Origin: Myxococcales bacterium
GTDB taxonomy: Bacteria > Myxococcota_A > Polyangia > Polyangiales > Houyiibacteriaceae
NCBI GenBank assembly: GCA_020354595.1
Contig: CP070650.1
Coordinates: 1,893,031 to 1,907,412, forward strand
DNA: 14,382 nt
Reading direction: 5' to 3'
Shown one piece after another: positions 4,975 through 13,861 of the stretch. Position numbers and translations under genes: made by a program. Within the stretch, counting starts at the first letter, position 1; each line of letters starts with the position of its first letter. Below the pieces are notes generated by a model. It worked only from the letters and a program-made list of their open reading frames with translations. It searched no databases and was not told where the DNA came from.

Positions 4975-6168
4975 TCAAGCGCAGGGGTCGAGAAGCTCTG
5001 AAACCGCAGGTCGGGCCGCGGCCAGACTGGCGCCCAAGCTGACCGCGTGCATCGGGTCGAGGTCTGAGCGCGGCCGCTTGTCGAAGTACTTGGAAATGAA
5101 GGCGCGGAGGCCTGGAAGCAGCGTGCTCCCACCCGCCAAGAACACCGCGTCGATGTCGCGCGCCCGGAGGCTCGCCTGCGCCAACACCTCGTCACAGATA
5201 CCGAAGGTCCTGCGGACCAAGTCCAAGGTCAGTTGTTGGACTTCGTCCCGGCTGATCGGAATGATGCCGCAGCTCTCCGGCGCAGCCGGGTCGACGCTGG
5301 GAATGGCGATCGCGGCTTGCTCGGACTCCGTCAGCTCGCACTTTGCCATCTCGCACGCCATCACGAGGCGATCGAAGGTCACCGCGTCGTTGGTGAGGTC
5401 CCAGCCGTCGCGCGACAACGTGCGATCGGCAACGTGAAGCGCGATTGTCCGGTCGACGTCATCGCCACCGAGGTAGGGGTCGCCGCCGTGGCCAACGACG
5501 CGAAACGGATAGCGGCTGCAATCGACGACCGCGGCATCGAACGTGCCACCGCCCAAGTCGTACACGAACGCATGCTTCAAGTTGCTGCGATTTAGATACG
5601 CAAGCGCCGTCGCAACCGGCTCTTCGACCACCCGCACGGTCGCAAATTCCGCCTTGGTGACCGCGAGCGAGGTCGCGTTGCGGCGGCGTTGATCGAAGCC
5701 GACCGGCGCAGTGACCACCGCATGCACGTCCTTGGTGGAGTGGTTGGCGAGTTGGCACAGACCACGCACGACCATGCCACCGATGTCGACCGCAGATATG
5801 ACGCCCGCTCGGGTTCGGAACGCCAGCTCGCCCTGCGGGGTTTGCACCAAGTCGTAGGGGTAGTGTTGGCGGAACTGCGTGGTGTACGAAGAGTGCCACC
5901 TCGCGCCGATGATGCGCTTGGCCGACAAGATGGTGTTCTTCGGATCCATCGCGCGCCGCCGACGCGCCGGTTTCCCGATCAGTGTCGCCCCGCTTGGGGG
6001 GAACGCCACGGCGGACGGCATCACAGACCCCTGACCCTCGAGGGTCAAGGCCTCGAAATTGCGGGCGACCACCGTGTTGGTGGTACCGAGATCGATTCCA
6101 ACGGTTCTCTGCCTGCGGATGGACATCGGCCGTCCGGAAATCTTGGGTCGTACTGCAGTGAGGTCCAT
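4975..6168 (-). CDS. Hsp70-family protein, ATPase domain only
   Basis: This is an actin-fold ATPase of the Hsp70 superfamily. The nucleotide-binding landmarks are all present: phosphate-1 loop VGIDLGTTNTVVA (23-35), VVTAPVGFDQRRRNA (151-165), VEEPVATALAYL (181-192), phosphate-2 loop YDLGGGTFDAAVVD (203-216) and adenosine loop VFLAGGSTLLPGLRAF (342-357). The protein stops at residue 397, soon after the ATPase fold. DnaK has about 638 residues, so the substrate-binding domain and lid are missing and a classic chaperone role is doubtful. No DnaJ or GrpE gene lies nearby. The start is uncertain. The ATG at 6168 has only a distant AAGAGG, while the ATG at 6126 (residue 15, MSIRRQRTVGIDLG) gives the more usual Hsp70 N-terminus. 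It is divergent from the reductase gene and convergent with MscS. Confidence 0.88.
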   Translation of the reverse strand: MDLTAVRPKISGRPMSIRRQRTVGIDLGTTNTVVARNFEALTLEGQGSVMPSAVAFPPSGATLIGKPARRRRAMDPKNTILSAKRIIGARWHSSYTTQFRQHYPYDLVQTPQGELAFRTRAGVISAVDIGGMVVRGLCQLANHSTKDVHAVVTAPVGFDQRRRNATSLAVTKAEFATVRVVEEPVATALAYLNRSNLKHAFVYDLGGGTFDAAVVDCSRYPFRVVGHGGDPYLGGDDVDRTIALHVADRTLSRDGWDLTNDAVTFDRLVMACEMAKCELTESEQAAIAIPSVDPAAPESCGIIPISRDEVQQLTLDLVRRTFGICDEVLAQASLRARDIDAVFLAGGSTLLPGLRAFISKYFDKRPRSDLDPMHAVSLGASLAAARPAVSELLDPCA

Positions 6169-6268
6169 AGGGGGGAGTGGCCTCTTCGAAACAACCAGGC
6201 TACGTCATTCGGAAGCCGCCTGCCACACTGAGTTCGCCGGCTGGACCCGATGGGGTGTTCATCCTAGA

Positions 6269-6283
6269 GTGAAACACGTTCTA
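6269..6283 (+). promoter_or_regulatory. KstR-like operator before reductase gene (site A)
   Basis: GTGAAACACGTTCTA ends 17 bases before the reductase ATG. Positions 2-15 of this 15-mer fit TNNAACNNGTTNNA, the published consensus of the TetR-family steroid regulator KstR. The identical 15 bases occur in opposite orientation before the Rieske oxygenase gene. Here the flanks extend the dyad (CTAGA on the left, TCTAG on the right). No clear -35/-10 pair was found for this site. Confidence 0.7.
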
Positions 6284-6300
6284 GTTGGAGACAGCACCGG

Positions 6301-7356
6301 ATGCCCGCTGAGTTTCACAAGCTTCAAATAGCAGGAATCATTCAAGAAACGCATGATACTCGCTCCTATGTCCTCGCCGTGCCCGAGTCGCTGCGAGAGG
6401 ATTTTCGGTACCGCGCCGGTCAGTTCCTGACCTTCGAGGTTCCGTGGAACGGGATGCAGCTGCATCGTTGCTACTCCCTGTCCAGCGCGCCGGAGACCGA
6501 TCCGTGGCCCAAGGTGACGGTTAAAAGGGTCGATGACGGCCGCATCTCCAACTGGTTCAACGACAACGTCAACGTAGGGGACTGGGTCTCCGTTCAACCG
6601 CCCGAGGGTCGTTTCTCGATCCGCTCCAACGAAGGCGACCATGGGATCGTGCTCTTCGGTGGGGGTAGCGGCATCACCCCCGTGCTCACGAACAAGAAGT
6701 CGGCGCTTCGAAACACCGATCCGGACGTAAAGCTCGTTTACGCCAACCGCGATGAGCGCTCGATCATCTTCAAAGACGAAATCGACCTCTGGCTCGCCGA
6801 GTTTCCGAACCGCCTCGAGGTCGTGCACCACCTGGATAGCCACGGCGGCTTCATGTCGGTGGCTGACATTCAAGAGCACATTCGCGGTTGGGAGGACGGA
6901 GAGTTCTTCGTCTGTGGCCCGACTGGATACATGGACACGGTCGAGGAGGCCTTCAAAGCGTCGAACATCGACGCAGGACAGACGAAGTTCGAGCGGTTCC
7001 TCTCGCTGCCCGATCCCGATCGCAGAGACGAGTCCGCCGACGTCATTCCCGAGCAGTCGGACGACGAGATCCCCGAGGCGTTCACCATGCTACTGGAGGG
7101 CCGACAGCACGAGGTGCCCTACAAGAAAGGGCTGACTTTGCTCGACTCAGCCGTCAAGGCCGGTCACAAGCCGCCTTCCTCCTGCGAGGACGGCTACTGT
7201 GGGTGTTGCATGGCACTCTTGAAGACCGGACAAGTCAACATGGCCAACCACGATGCACTCGAGCCGAGCGACATCGAGCGTGGTTGGGTGCTGGCGTGCC
7301 AGGCGCGGCCCGCAAGCCAGGAGCCGATCGAGCTCGACTTCGACGCCGAATACTGA
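6301..7356 (+). CDS. FAD/NAD(P)/[2Fe-2S] oxygenase reductase (KshB/PaaE-like)
   Basis: This electron-transfer protein takes electrons from NAD(P)H through FAD and a plant-type [2Fe-2S] cluster to an oxygenase. The order of domains in the 351 aa is FAD-binding barrel (RCYSLSS at 56-62), NAD(P)-binding domain (FGGGSGITPV at 119-128, FVCGPTGYMD at 203-212) and C-terminal ferredoxin. The cluster ligands are C295, C300, C303 and C333, with an extra C302. This order matches KshB and phenylacetate hydroxylase reductase PaaE. The ATG at 6301 has GGAGA at 6287-6291. The gene converges with the NTF2-like gene with only four bases between them. Because it shares an operator sequence with the Rieske oxygenase gene, that oxygenase is its most likely partner. 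The enzyme class is sure; the partner is inferred. Confidence 0.93.
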   Translation: MPAEFHKLQIAGIIQETHDTRSYVLAVPESLREDFRYRAGQFLTFEVPWNGMQLHRCYSLSSAPETDPWPKVTVKRVDDGRISNWFNDNVNVGDWVSVQPPEGRFSIRSNEGDHGIVLFGGGSGITPVLTNKKSALRNTDPDVKLVYANRDERSIIFKDEIDLWLAEFPNRLEVVHHLDSHGGFMSVADIQEHIRGWEDGEFFVCGPTGYMDTVEEAFKASNIDAGQTKFERFLSLPDPDRRDESADVIPEQSDDEIPEAFTMLLEGRQHEVPYKKGLTLLDSAVKAGHKPPSSCEDGYCGCCMALLKTGQVNMANHDALEPSDIERGWVLACQARPASQEPIELDFDAEY

Positions 7357-7360
7357 GCCG

Positions 7361-7891
7361 CTACGGCCGTTGCCGGTCGGGCCAATCCCAGAAGGATGCC
7401 TTGCCAATCGTCCAGTCGGGGCCGTTGCCCCAGTCGTTGCGGGTCCGCTTGTTGCGATGGTCGGGGTCGTGCTCTTTGAGGGCCGCCTCGTACTCCTGGA
7501 ACTGCTGGATACCAAGCTTCTCAGCCCAGTAGTCTTCTTCGGACGACCATCGGTTGTTCCCGGCATACTGGACAATCGTCACGCCCGGAAAGTCCATGGC
7601 GCCCTCGCCGCTCGGATGGTCGCGACGATTGATCATGCGAAACACCACACGCCCGCTCGGGTCCGCGACGTGCCAGTCATAGACGCCGTAGATCTCGCCG
7701 TACTGCTCCATCAACGGAACAATCCAATTTCGGACCGTCTCGCGCCCCTGCATCGTGCCGAGCACGCGCTCCTCGTAGACGACGTCCTCGGTAAACAAGT
7801 CGGCCCAGGCGTTCCAATCCTCGCGGATCATCCCCGTGTACCAGAAGTGCCGAAAGGCATCCTCGACTTCTGCGAGCTGGAAACGGGCCAC
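7361..7891 (-). CDS. NTF2/SnoaL-fold protein with Trp-rich tail
   Basis: A cone-shaped NTF2-like fold is indicated by FRHFWYTGMIREDWNAWADLF (13-33), then FTEDVVYEERVLGTMQGR (33-50) and the VVFRMIN to VQYAGNNRWSSEEDYW strands (82-122). Members of this superfamily include steroid isomerases, polyketide cyclases, dehydratases and small subunits of Rieske oxygenases, so the activity cannot be named. The GTG at 7891 shares one base with the stop codon of the Rieske gene (TAGTG), so it is translationally coupled and should act with that oxygenase. The total is 176 aa. The last 36 residues are charged and Trp-rich (W154, W160, W168, W170) and extend beyond the usual fold of about 130 residues. The frame stays open upstream inside the Rieske gene, but that part is a shadow. 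Confidence 0.8.
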   Translation of the reverse strand: MARFQLAEVEDAFRHFWYTGMIREDWNAWADLFTEDVVYEERVLGTMQGRETVRNWIVPLMEQYGEIYGVYDWHVADPSGRVVFRMINRRDHPSGEGAMDFPGVTIVQYAGNNRWSSEEDYWAEKLGIQQFQEYEAALKEHDPDHRNKRTRNDWGNGPDWTIGKASFWDWPDRQRP

Positions 7892-8856
7892 TACTCTGCG
7901 GCCTCTTGGTCTTCCGGCCAGGAATAGAACTGGGTGCACCAGCGCCGGAAGAGCGCGATCGGGCCGTCCCCGTCGCAAAGAAGCGGCTTCTCGTACTGGA
8001 CCTTGTTTTCCCAGATCGGGATATCTTGCTCGAGTTGGCGGGTCACCTCCGCAACGAACGCTTTGCCAACGCCGCGCGCCATCTCGGCACCCCCGGTTTT
8101 TTTCACGGTGAAGTGAAAACGCAGGTGCACGTGGTCTGCGTCGATCGGCGTCTGCGTAGCGACGTTGAGCGTCTCCACGATGCCTTTGAAGCGCACGACC
8201 GCCAGACCAAAGCCGTGATTGAAGCTTTCGATCGACCCTTCGACCGTGCCGCGCGGGGTCTCCATACCGGCGGGGGAGAAGACGCGAAGGACGGGTCCAT
8301 CCGCCGATGCCTCGGCGTGGGGCATGTTGGTCGTGCCATGCAGATAGTGGAAGTGGGCGGTGTCGACGGCGTTCTCGGCCATCTCTTGGTTGCGCGTGCG
8401 AATGGTCCATTCCCTTTGGACGACTTCGGTCCACTCGTCATGACCCCACTCGGGGATCTCATCGGGGATGTCGAAATTTGGCGGCTCGCCCAACGCGTGG
8501 TGCCAACACATCACCATGTTGGCGACTTCCTTGATCCGCCAGGTCGGGACCTTTGCTTTACGCGGAACGTGCTCGGCGTATGGGACCGCGGTGCATCTAC
8601 CATCCGTTCCGAACTGCCACGCGTGGAAAGGGCACTCGATCGAGTCGCCTTTGACCGAGCCCCCGTGGCCGAGGTGGGCGCCCAGATGCGGACAAAACGC
8701 GTCCAACACGGAAAGCTCACCGTCCTCCGAGCGCCAGATGACGAGGTCCTCGCCGAAGTACTTCAGCGGCTTGACGTCACCGGGCTTGATCTCGTCGGAG
8801 TACGCGATCTGAAACCAGCCGTTGGGGATCGGTGGGGTGAAGTAGCGGTCGTCCAT
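7891..8856 (-). CDS. Rieske non-heme iron oxygenase, DAF-36/KshA-like
   Basis: This is the oxygenase component of a two-component system. The N-terminal Rieske domain has cluster ligands C55 and H57 (CPHLGAHL) and C75 and H78 (CPFHAWQF). The catalytic domain carries the likely mononuclear iron ligands H168 and H173 in ENAVDTAHFHYLH, with D165 bridging from the Rieske site, and D278 in LEQDIPIWENK. The 321 aa are compact, as in sterol and steroid oxygenases; ring-hydroxylating dioxygenases are nearer 450. The CPHLGA form is that of the DAF-36/Neverland cholesterol 7-desaturases, whereas KshA has a CRHMGG-type motif. A steroid or sterol substrate is inferred, and another hydrophobic substrate is possible. 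No ribosome site precedes the ATG at 8856. A -10-like TATTTT ends seven bases before the ATG, so the message may be leaderless. The NTF2-like gene is coupled downstream. Confidence 0.92.
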   Translation of the reverse strand: MDDRYFTPPIPNGWFQIAYSDEIKPGDVKPLKYFGEDLVIWRSEDGELSVLDAFCPHLGAHLGHGGSVKGDSIECPFHAWQFGTDGRCTAVPYAEHVPRKAKVPTWRIKEVANMVMCWHHALGEPPNFDIPDEIPEWGHDEWTEVVQREWTIRTRNQEMAENAVDTAHFHYLHGTTNMPHAEASADGPVLRVFSPAGMETPRGTVEGSIESFNHGFGLAVVRFKGIVETLNVATQTPIDADHVHLRFHFTVKKTGGAEMARGVGKAFVAEVTRQLEQDIPIWENKVQYEKPLLCDGDGPIALFRRWCTQFYSWPEDQEAAE

Positions 8857-8862
8857 CGGCCA

Positions 8863-8890
8863 AAAATAGAACGTGTTTCACTTTTTTCAA
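8863..8890 (-). promoter_or_regulatory. candidate promoter of the Rieske gene
   Basis: On the minus strand, TTGAAA (8885-8890) and TATTTT (8863-8868) are separated by 16 bases, a fair sigma-70-type match. The -10 element ends only six bases before the ATG, so transcription would begin at or near the start codon. The KstR-like site fills the spacer and touches the -10. Confidence 0.5.
8867..8881 (-). promoter_or_regulatory. KstR-like operator before Rieske gene (site B)
   Basis: Read on the minus strand, this is GTGAAACACGTTCTA, identical over 15 bases to site A before the reductase. It sits between the -35-like and -10-like elements and ends 10 bases before the ATG. A bound repressor there would block RNA polymerase. 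The flanks differ from site A, so the shared 15 bases are not part of a longer repeat. Confidence 0.72.
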
Positions 8891-10567: not shown

Positions 10568-12001
10568 CTACTCGGACACTCGAACCTGTATGCTCGTCAC
10601 CAAATCGCCAGTCGCGGTCGCCACATCCGAAACGACGACCACCGGCTCTCCCGTGGCGATCACGTCACGTTCGCGAAGCTTGGAGAGCGCATTCACGATG
10701 GTCTTCTCGGGGTCGCTCGAGAGATTCATTCGGAACGGAATCACCGAACGGTTCAGCCAGAGCTTGCGCCGCGTGGTGCTCATGTTGGTGAACGCATAGA
10801 TGATCGCGCGTTGCGGACGGTAGCTCGCCACGAGCTGTCCGAAATAGCCGCGCCTCGTCATGACCACGATCGCCTTCGCATCGAGGGAATCTGCGAGACG
10901 ACACGCGCCTTGTGCGATGTGCGCTCGCTGCGTCTCGGGGGGGGGGCGCTCTTTGTAGAAGTCGAGCCCCGGTCCCATCTCGATTCGACGCGCGATGGTG
11001 TCGAGAACCTCGACGCAGCGCACAGGATACTTCCCGGCGGCGGTCTCGCCGCTCAACATGATCGCATCCGCCTGCTCGTAGACGGCGTTGGCTACGTCGG
11101 TGACCTCTGCGCGCGTTGGCAGGGGGTTGTCTATCATCGATTCGAGCAAGTGTGTCGCAACGATGATCGGCTTTCCCGCGATGGCACAGCGTCGAATCAT
11201 ATCGCGCTGCAGGACCGGCAGCTCTTCGAAGGCTACTTCGACGCCGAGATCGCCGCGAGCGACCATGATGCCGTCCGCGGCTTCGAGGATTTCATCGAAG
11301 TTGTCGATGCCTTCTTGGTTTTCGATCTTGGCGATGAGCCGTTGATGTCCGCCCGCGGCGTTCACGATCTCGCGAACCTCGCGCACGTCTTGCACGCCGC
11401 GCACGAACGATAGCGCGATGAAGTCGACGTCCTGCTCGATGGCGAATTGAATGTCCTCGCGGTCCTTATTGGTGATCGATGGAAGGTTGACCCGAACGCC
11501 AGGCAAGTTGACGTGTTTGCGCGACCCAAGCGTGCCGCCATCGAGCACACGGCACTTGAGGCGGTGCTCGGAAATCTCGAGGACCTCCAGGTTGATCAGA
11601 CCGTTGTCGACGGTCACGCGCTCACCGACGCGGAGGTCGTTCACCAAGTCTAGGTAGTTGACGTGGACGCTGCGCTCTTCGGCATCGTCGGCGAGTACGC
11701 TGAAGTAAAAGACATCGCCGGAGTTGAGGTCGAGGCTCTCGGCGAGCTCGCCAGTGCGAATCTCCGGGCCTTGAAGGTCCATCAGGATCGACACCGGGTG
11801 CGGGAGCTTCTTGCTGAGACTCTTGAGATTGCGAATCACCTGGAGATGCGACGCGTGATCGCCGTGCGACATGTTCAAACGAGCCAGGTTCATCCCGGCC
11901 CGGGCCAAAGCAGCTAGCGTGTCCCAAGAGCGCGTCGATGGCCCGATCGTGCAGACGATCTTGGTGAGTCGAGTCTGCGACTGTTGCGGCGGCAGCTTCA
12001 T
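10568..12001 (-). CDS. pyk: pyruvate kinase
   Basis: This enzyme converts phosphoenolpyruvate and ADP to pyruvate and ATP, the last step of glycolysis. The 477 aa are the normal length for a bacterial enzyme. Visible landmarks are TKIVCTIGPS (13-22), LARLNMSHG (39-47, with R41 and N43), MDLQGPEIRTG (74-84), KIENQEGIDNFDEI (225-238, catalytic K225 and metal ligand E227), MVARGDLGVE (246-255, D251) and VATHLLESMI (281-290). The last of these is usually TQMLESM. The C-terminal regulatory domain is more divergent (TRRGYFGQLVASYRP where the family has a TxSGxTA-type segment). Ten consecutive C bases encode P353-P355, a possible slippage site, but the frame is intact. It is transcribed between two MYXO-CTERM protease genes on the same strand, with gaps of 24 and 34 bases. 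Confidence 0.96.
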   Translation of the reverse strand: MKLPPQQSQTRLTKIVCTIGPSTRSWDTLAALARAGMNLARLNMSHGDHASHLQVIRNLKSLSKKLPHPVSILMDLQGPEIRTGELAESLDLNSGDVFYFSVLADDAEERSVHVNYLDLVNDLRVGERVTVDNGLINLEVLEISEHRLKCRVLDGGTLGSRKHVNLPGVRVNLPSITNKDREDIQFAIEQDVDFIALSFVRGVQDVREVREIVNAAGGHQRLIAKIENQEGIDNFDEILEAADGIMVARGDLGVEVAFEELPVLQRDMIRRCAIAGKPIIVATHLLESMIDNPLPTRAEVTDVANAVYEQADAIMLSGETAAGKYPVRCVEVLDTIARRIEMGPGLDFYKERPPPETQRAHIAQGACRLADSLDAKAIVVMTRRGYFGQLVASYRPQRAIIYAFTNMSTTRRKLWLNRSVIPFRMNLSSDPEKTIVNALSKLRERDVIATGEPVVVVSDVATATGDLVTSIQVRVSE

Positions 12002-13229: not shown

Positions 13230-13255
13230 CGAGACGACAGTCGGTGCAGGAGCGC

Positions 13256-13861
13256 ATGAGCCGCCGAGCACGACGAAAAGAACAGACACTTCGCCGAATC
13301 GAAGAGGCCGGGTGGAGCCTTTTCACCACGCGGGGGTACGAAGCCACGTCGACGCGCGAGATCGCGGACGCCGCGGACATCGCAGCTGGAACCCTCTTCA
13401 ACTACTTCCCCGAGAAGCGAAGTCTCTTGATTCATCTGATGCAGCAGCGGATCGACGAGGCGATGCACCGAGGCTTGGACACACTTGCGGGGTCGTCACT
13501 CGAGGAGGATCTGACCCATGTCCTCGACGTGCTGACCCAGTGCTACGCAAAGGAACGACGCCTGAGCCGCGTGTTCGTGAAGGAGCTGCTTTTCACGGAC
13601 GGCGAGCAGCGCGCCGAGTCCGCTGCCTGGACGTTCGAGCTCGTCAAGAGGATCGCCGGGCTAATACGGGCCGCGCAGGGACGCGGAGAGCTCGACCCCG
13701 CCGTGGATCCGTTGGAGGCGGGCCAGCAACTGTTCAGCGCGCACTACTTCGGGCTCGTCACGTGGCTCGGCGGCACGATCCCATCGCGCGCGGCGCACCA
13801 GGAGCAGGTGCGGGCGTCGCTACGCCTGCTCTTGCGAGGCCTGGGCCGAAGCGCGGCTTAA
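13256..13861 (+). CDS. TetR-family transcriptional regulator
   Basis: A one-component DNA-binding repressor of 201 aa. The N-terminal helix-turn-helix domain reads ARRKEQTLRRIEEAGWSLF (5-23) and ATSTREIADAADIAAGTLFNYF (30-51), the classic TetR form. The rest is a helical ligand-binding domain with no recognised ligand. The ATG at 13256 gives the usual MSRRARRKEQ start, with AGGAG three bases upstream, which is close. A GTG at 13244 would add four residues and has GGGAG 14 bases away. It is divergent from the protease gene, and candidate operators lie in the gap. It converges on the alpha/beta hydrolase gene with a 42-base overlap. It is the only recognisable regulator in the window. Whether it binds sites A and B, about 4.4 and 7 kb away, cannot be told. 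Confidence 0.92.
   Translation: MSRRARRKEQTLRRIEEAGWSLFTTRGYEATSTREIADAADIAAGTLFNYFPEKRSLLIHLMQQRIDEAMHRGLDTLAGSSLEEDLTHVLDVLTQCYAKERRLSRVFVKELLFTDGEQRAESAAWTFELVKRIAGLIRAAQGRGELDPAVDPLEAGQQLFSAHYFGLVTWLGGTIPSRAAHQEQVRASLRLLLRGLGRSAA

Follow-up and report, generated by a model that had tools for sequence, protein, structure and literature searches.

Two predicted KstR-type operators bracket a putative steroid 9alpha-hydroxylase cassette in a myxobacterial genome

The DNA analysed (the window: 14,382 nucleotides, positions 1,893,031 to 1,907,412 of contig CP070650.1, assembly GCA_020354595.1 of a Myxococcales bacterium) carries an oxygenase cassette with one copy of the 15-mer GTGAAACACGTTCTA at either end. 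A gene for a KshB-like reductase of 351 aa (6301–7356, + strand; domains FAD_binding_6, NAD_binding_1 and Fer2) is transcribed towards a gene pair on the other strand, consisting of a KshA-like Rieske oxygenase of 321 aa (7891–8856, −; Rieske and KshA_C domains) and, behind it, a SnoaL/NTF2-like protein (7361–7891, −). Each of the two convergent units has one site of its own. Gene and domain content bore out a previous sequence-only reading, according to which reductase, NTF2-like protein and Rieske oxygenase are all that lies between the sites. A SnoaL-like translation was found at the same place in two related genomes, G018 and G026.

The Rieske protein matched the KshA_C domain at 133.5 bits, and its closest solved structures were all KshA (4qdf, 171 bits; 4qdc, 167 bits; 2zyl, 148 bits). 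Rieske protein and reductase are a putative KshA/KshB-type 9alpha-hydroxylase pair. They resemble the 3-ketosteroid 9alpha-hydroxylase in the combination of Rieske and KshA_C domains and in the pairing of an oxygenase with a flavin/2Fe-2S reductase; they differ in the convergent arrangement of the genes, the SnoaL-like gene in between, the separate operators and a shorter oxygenase (321 aa against 386–394 aa in the solved KshA chains). In the 19 genomes of the genus, 5–16 Rieske matches to this protein were counted per genome, fragments included. Divergent from the reductase gene, in the window and in G018, lies a gene for an HSP70-family protein (4975–6168, −; 397 aa), which matches only positions 2–373 of the 599-position Pfam model and seems to be without the substrate-binding part.

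Both copies of the 15-mer are exact, at 6269–6283 (+), which is 18–32 nt before the ATG of the reductase gene, and at 8867–8881 (−), before the Rieske gene. No third copy was present in the window, even when three mismatches were allowed, a setting at which 2 of 200 shuffles gave two matches. Over all 2.78 Mb of the assembly from which the window comes (G000, estimated to be 66.8% complete), the exact 15-mer is limited to these two places; the scatter of random copies in coding DNA that would have spoken against a regulatory role was not seen. The sole copy with one mismatch (C1:265957) precedes the gene of an FAD flavoprotein. As the sequence-only reading had claimed, both copies agree with TNNAACNNGTTNNA, the published KstR core and here the loose consensus (6270–6283 and 8867–8880). 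An additional loose match within the reductase gene (6547–6560) does not fit the stricter form described below and is probably due to chance. The sites do face inward, as that reading had noted, but the significance attached to this did not hold: it means no more than that each site reads toward its own gene; the motif is nearly palindromic, and the opposite orientation was seen at other targets.

For both copies a predicted promoter places its −10 box on the operator. For the reductase gene these are a −35 box TGGACC (6242–6247, +), inside the block GGCTGGACC that is conserved in the aligned loci of the genus, and a −10 box TAGAGT (6265–6270, +). The Rieske gene has a predicted −35 box TTGAAA (8885–8890, −) and a −10 box TATTTT (8863–8868, −), which overlaps the operator and ends 6 nt before the ATG. 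When 22 promoters of G000 and G018 were compared, the best −35/−10 pair in the permitted range put the −10 box on or beside the operator (for example TTGACG-17-TAGAAC before the SCP2 gene and TGGACC-17-TAGAGT before the reductase gene), with a total of 89 mismatches, lower than in any of 200 flank shuffles (mean 113, minimum 102). This overlap makes repression by occlusion likely. The promoter TTGAAA-16-TATTTT (8857–8890, −) is kept in most close orthologues of the Rieske gene; its −10 box ends 6–9 nt before the ATG, an arrangement that suggests an mRNA with little or no leader.

A scan of G000 with the reversed pattern as control showed the loose consensus to be a weak predictor in this genome, with 32 sites against 17 for the control. 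The strict motif TRRAACNNGTTYYA, in which four positions of TNNAACNNGTTNNA are restricted, gave 10 sites against 2. Upon application of a uniform rule (site between 150 bp before and 20 bp inside the gene start called by a codon-based gene caller), nine of the ten strict sites were located at a gene start, compared to two of the 22 loose-only sites (p = 1.8e-5), 19 of which lie within called genes. The tenth strict site (L058) falls in a called frame that crosses a masked stretch; an oxidoreductase (ADH_N_2) lies on the opposite strand. On the evidence of genome scan, window shuffles and strict-motif enrichment, a chance repeat was rejected as the source of the 15-mer pair.

Steroid- or acyl-CoA-type genes stand behind seven of the ten strict sites. 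The targets are KshB, KshA, an HsaD-like hydrolase (best NCBIfam match, under the cut-off), an EchA20-like hydratase and a thiolase (both over the cut-off), the latter with a FadJ-like gene, an SCP2 protein, an acyl-CoA dehydrogenase, an FAD flavoprotein, a CurA-type oxidoreductase and a peptide deformylase. The names EchA20, IpdA/B, Ltp, HsaE, HsaG and NTF2 are ones that we take to fit the family matches; the names ADH/CurA, FadB and MoaD/E in G000 come from translations or a single domain. The scan proposed in the sequence-only reading thereby yielded sites of the TnnAACnnGTTnnA type that are enriched and lie ahead of steroid genes. The strict form does miss targets, as a loose-only site (C1:1156347) precedes an F420 oxidoreductase of the Rv3520c family and its G018 counterpart is strict. 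The operator-bearing SCP2 gene of G000 (L053, 5517–5998) is followed by MoaD/MoaE-like genes, named from translation only. Before EchA20-like and CoA-transferase-type genes the operator reads TGAAACGCGTTTCA (L141, 18105–18118; L049, 4026–4039); the IpdA-type protein of G000 had no NCBIfam match at 1e-30, and the 80-residue piece checked from G018 showed no IpdB-type domain.

Relative G018, which is listed as 100% complete, contains 14 strict sites, of which the uniform rule places 13 at a gene start; the exception (L141, 4510) lies within the over-long frame of an Rv3520c-like gene. One site heads an SCP2-ChsH2-Ltp-thiolase-FadD-KshA-KstR operon that ends in the gene of a KstR-like TetR protein. 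Other targets are the Rv3520c-family F420 oxidoreductase, a CurA-like reductase, the EchA20-like and CoA-transferase-type genes, HsaA-, HsaD-, HsaE- and HsaG-like genes with a divergent amidohydrolase and enoyl-CoA hydratase, KshB, KshA, a nitronate-monooxygenase-type protein, an acyl-CoA dehydrogenase pair, an FAD flavoprotein, a KstD-like protein, a GMC oxidoreductase, a hydrolase with an HsaB-like flavin reductase, and an aldehyde dehydrogenase. The Ltp-type, thiolase, FadD, EchA20-type, acetaldehyde dehydrogenase, Rv3520c-family and FAD flavoprotein matches exceed the NCBI cut-offs, while HsaA (418/450), HsaD (177/400), the hydratase (386/409) and KstD (577/789) are best matches under them and HsaB is a second-best match (137.7, with HpaC at 138.8). 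Site-to-start distances were based on starts picked by hand; the start of the L141 Rv3520c-like gene is off by some codons, and for L155 the ATG at 11315 was used.

The comparison was extended to 57 related genomes, G000 included, 19 of which belong to its genus. Strict sites numbered 10–26 in 23 genomes and 0–4 in the other 34. The enriched genomes comprise all 19 of the genus (G000 among them), three of the family (G021, G026 and G029) and G045 of another family in the order. A Rieske match above 400 bits to the window's protein was present in all 23 enriched genomes, an HsaA-like protein above 340 bits in 19 and a KstR-like TetR of at least 112 bits in 17, and none of the three in the other 34. 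The p-values of these associations (7e-10 and below) overstate the case because the genomes are related; four genera (g1, g4, g9 and g24) are the fairer count.

Both sites are retained in orthologous promoters of the genus, the conservation that the sequence-only reading had asked to see. Before the Rieske gene, 17 of 30 loci have a strict site at a nearly constant distance, among them every one of the 15 loci with at least 76% identity. For the reductase, 17 of the 30 loci were inspected, L183 (contig edge) and L196 being unreadable, and the 14-mer was found at −31 in all 14 readable loci of the genus, 13 times strict and once with one mismatch. In G026 and G021, from two other genera, two sites likewise bracket convergent KshA- and KshB-like genes. 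Pairs of operators 15–48 bp apart (start to start) also occur, at G001:C10:84579-84607, L158 17731–17761 and L155 11242–11303; the second operator of the L158 pair has one mismatch.

A KstR-like TetR protein was found in 14 of the 19 genus genomes. It is about 30% identical to actinobacterial KstR, which is its best match in the PDB by sequence and by fold and to which its predicted fold is closer than to other TetR proteins. In the G018 protein, TetR_N and TetR_C_20 both exceed the Pfam cut-off, a combination also present in at least 120 relatives of M. tuberculosis KstR. The NCBIfam KstR equivalog cut-off (280 bits) was reached in none of the 57 genomes, so the protein is termed KstR-like and not KstR. 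An operator is located at the repressor gene's own promoter or at its operon head: for both copies in G045, about 100 bp upstream in G046, and about 6.1 kb upstream in G018. Divergence from fadE34 was not observed; the repressor gene of G018 and G026 lies behind KshA and is read in the same direction, and the fadE34 arrangement is taken as synteny and no defining trait.

From the sites, their positions and conservation, the target genes, the homology and predicted fold of the repressor, and the operators at the repressor promoter or operon head, we consider it very probable that the pair of sites act as operators within a steroid-catabolism regulon of KstR type, predicted to be bound by a KstR-homologous TetR repressor. 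The proposal of a KstR-type code in a myxobacterium, made from the window alone, gains support from site conservation, enrichment before steroid genes and the KstR-homologous TetR in 14 of 19 genomes.

Several observations weigh against this interpretation. The strict pattern was picked after the 32 loose sites of G000 had been viewed, so that G000 is no independent test, whereas the other 56 genomes are. An earlier crude gene caller put five of the eight strict sites outside the window inside ORFs. The enriched genomes are no independent samples, as one genus accounts for 19 of the 23. Thirteen of the 30 Rieske loci are without a strict site, three having one mismatch and ten no site (L035, L036, L038–L042, L045, L047 and L048). 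The KstR-like proteins stay at about 30% identity and under the NCBIfam cut-off (118.6–128.0 of 280 bits in the genus), and KstR-like TetRs of 82–108 bits occur in ten unenriched genomes (G019, G022, G023, G025, G028, G031, G032, G039, G046 and G053). In nine of these (G039 excluded) the counts of AGAACNNGTTCT were mixed: above control in G022, G025, G031, G019, G046 and G053, equal in G028 and below in G023 and G032. The 66.8% complete G000 has neither a KstR-like match above 62 bits nor HsaA, and its SCP2 operon is shorter than that of G018; other genes follow SCP2 in place of the ChsH2-to-KstR block, which makes loss possible. Finally, the strict site at C1:1583798 precedes the peptide deformylase gene. 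This operator, TAGAACATGTTCTA, is perfect (L054, 5799–5812), and the G018 counterpart (L147) has a divergent KstD-like gene. It may be an orphan left by gene loss, since the KstD-like gene lies at the same place in G018, divergent across the site.

A TetR protein is also encoded in the window itself (13244–13861, +), and could bind the operators in place of a KstR homologue. KstR is its best NCBIfam model (61.8 of 280 bits); six sister genomes (G001, G003, G005, G010, G016 and G018) have a match to that model, similar in score, about 5 kb from their Rieske gene; and the protein is encoded in G000, which yielded no KstR-like gene. It shares only 21% identity with KstR, however, has Thermus FadR (3ang) as its best PDB match, and falls outside the group of KstR and KstR-like proteins in a tree to which a long-branch warning applies. 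The tree was built without L256, L258, L259, L261 and four of the six extra homologues, and the identity comparison without L090 and L095. No motif match with up to one mismatch was found near its own gene, whereas the KstR-like genes are located behind operators. On these grounds the window TetR was rejected as the regulator; it is probably not the protein that binds, and such a role appears unlikely.

That the operators serve sterol biosynthesis or remodelling (SdmA/SdmB-like C-4 demethylation) and not degradation is very improbable. The top NCBIfam match of the Rieske protein is SdmA, a 4beta-methylsterol monooxygenase, at 62.1 bits, which does not reach the cut-off of 600, and a squalene-cyclase-type protein over the Pfam cut-off (177–189 bits) was found in five of the 19 genus genomes (G002, G010, G011, G012 and G016), of which G016 is complete. 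No such cyclase over the cut-off was seen in G000 or in four genomes of the genus whose listed completeness is 100% (G005, G013, G015 and G018), on which account a biosynthetic role was rejected; the sites precede HsaA-, HsaD-, KstD- and EchA20-like genes, and KshA structures match the Rieske protein at 148–171 bits. Equally hard to credit is a general fatty-acid regulon of FadR/PsrA type whose site merely resembles that of KstR: thiolase, FadJ-like and acyl-CoA dehydrogenase genes are among the targets, but so are ring-degradation-type genes, the site agrees with the KstR table of Kendall 2007 across the full 14 bp, and both sequence and fold place the TetR beside KshA nearer to KstR than FadR.

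Under KstR-type control, a KstR-homologous TetR such as that of the sister genomes would sit on TRRAACNNGTTYYA, covering the −10 box and start region, and block transcription from each promoter. A steroid-CoA intermediate would then free the repressor, and its release would turn on the KshA/KshB pair plus the remaining 9,10-seco steroid pathway. Occlusion of RNA polymerase and its relief by a steroid-CoA are proposed by analogy; we infer binding, occlusion, ligand, enzyme activity and the presence of this repressor in the window's own strain.

The gene echA20 belongs to the KstR2 regulon. The regulon predicted here is similar to that of KstR2 in its lower-pathway genes, in which a CoA-transferase-type gene comes after an EchA20-like hydratase, but differs in that these genes sit behind a KstR-type site. 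According to PMC5380842, the KstR2 regulon also includes ipdAB. For mycobacterial KstR, PMC1995591 (Kendall 2007) gives TnnAACnnGTTnnA as the operator and TAGAACNNGTTCTA as the form in the kstR promoter, reports a site between Rv3520c and Rv3521 in M. tuberculosis and a partial overlap of operator and −10 box, and predicts 16 and 31 sites. The predicted myxobacterial system has in common with it the operator code, the partial −10 overlap, a TetR repressor whose own gene carries an operator, and a site beside an Rv3520c-type gene; strict sites here number 10–26 per enriched genome. One difference is the TGAAAC half-site in 8 of 10 strict sites of G000, though such half-sites are also present in the mycobacterial table (PMC1995591). 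Further differences are the myxobacterial hosts, a repressor of about 30% identity, the KstR-type operator at EchA20-like genes and the place of the repressor gene, after KshA in an operator-headed operon (G018 and G026) instead of divergent from fadE34 as in mycobacteria (PMC1995591). EdcR of Caenibius tardaugens is likewise a TetR repressor of steroid degradation outside the Actinobacteria, with a different operator, TnnCnnTACnAnTnGTAnnGnnA (PMC8700777).

KstR-type control is well known in actinobacteria, and its predicted occurrence in Myxococcota is new to the literature searched. The open-access literature, a scope that leaves out most subscription papers, yielded no report of KstR or 9,10-seco steroid degradation in Myxococcota, and the terms 'myxo' and 'deltaproteobacteria' do not occur in the accessible portions of PMC4810484 (Bergstrand 2016) and PMC5790920 (Holert 2018). 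A sterol reductase is present also in uncultured Myxococcota, as stated in the available part of PMC13277303.

It is conceivable, at somewhat less than even chance, that the whole steroid regulon, repressor and operator code together, is common to myxobacteria and Actinobacteria through transfer or very old descent, with the 14-bp code near-unchanged while the repressor is left at about 30% identity, and that the KstR-type code also took over EchA20/IpdAB-type lower-pathway genes, which are those of KstR2 in actinobacteria. With the predicted regulon, the range of a well-studied steroid switch widens to uncultured myxobacteria, and there is a clear case in which to ask how an operator code persists while its repressor diverges. 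The regulon provides a DNA signature by which steroid-degradation genes may be predicted in these organisms, and leads to the prediction that sterols or steroids are degraded in a lineage without such reports in the literature searched.

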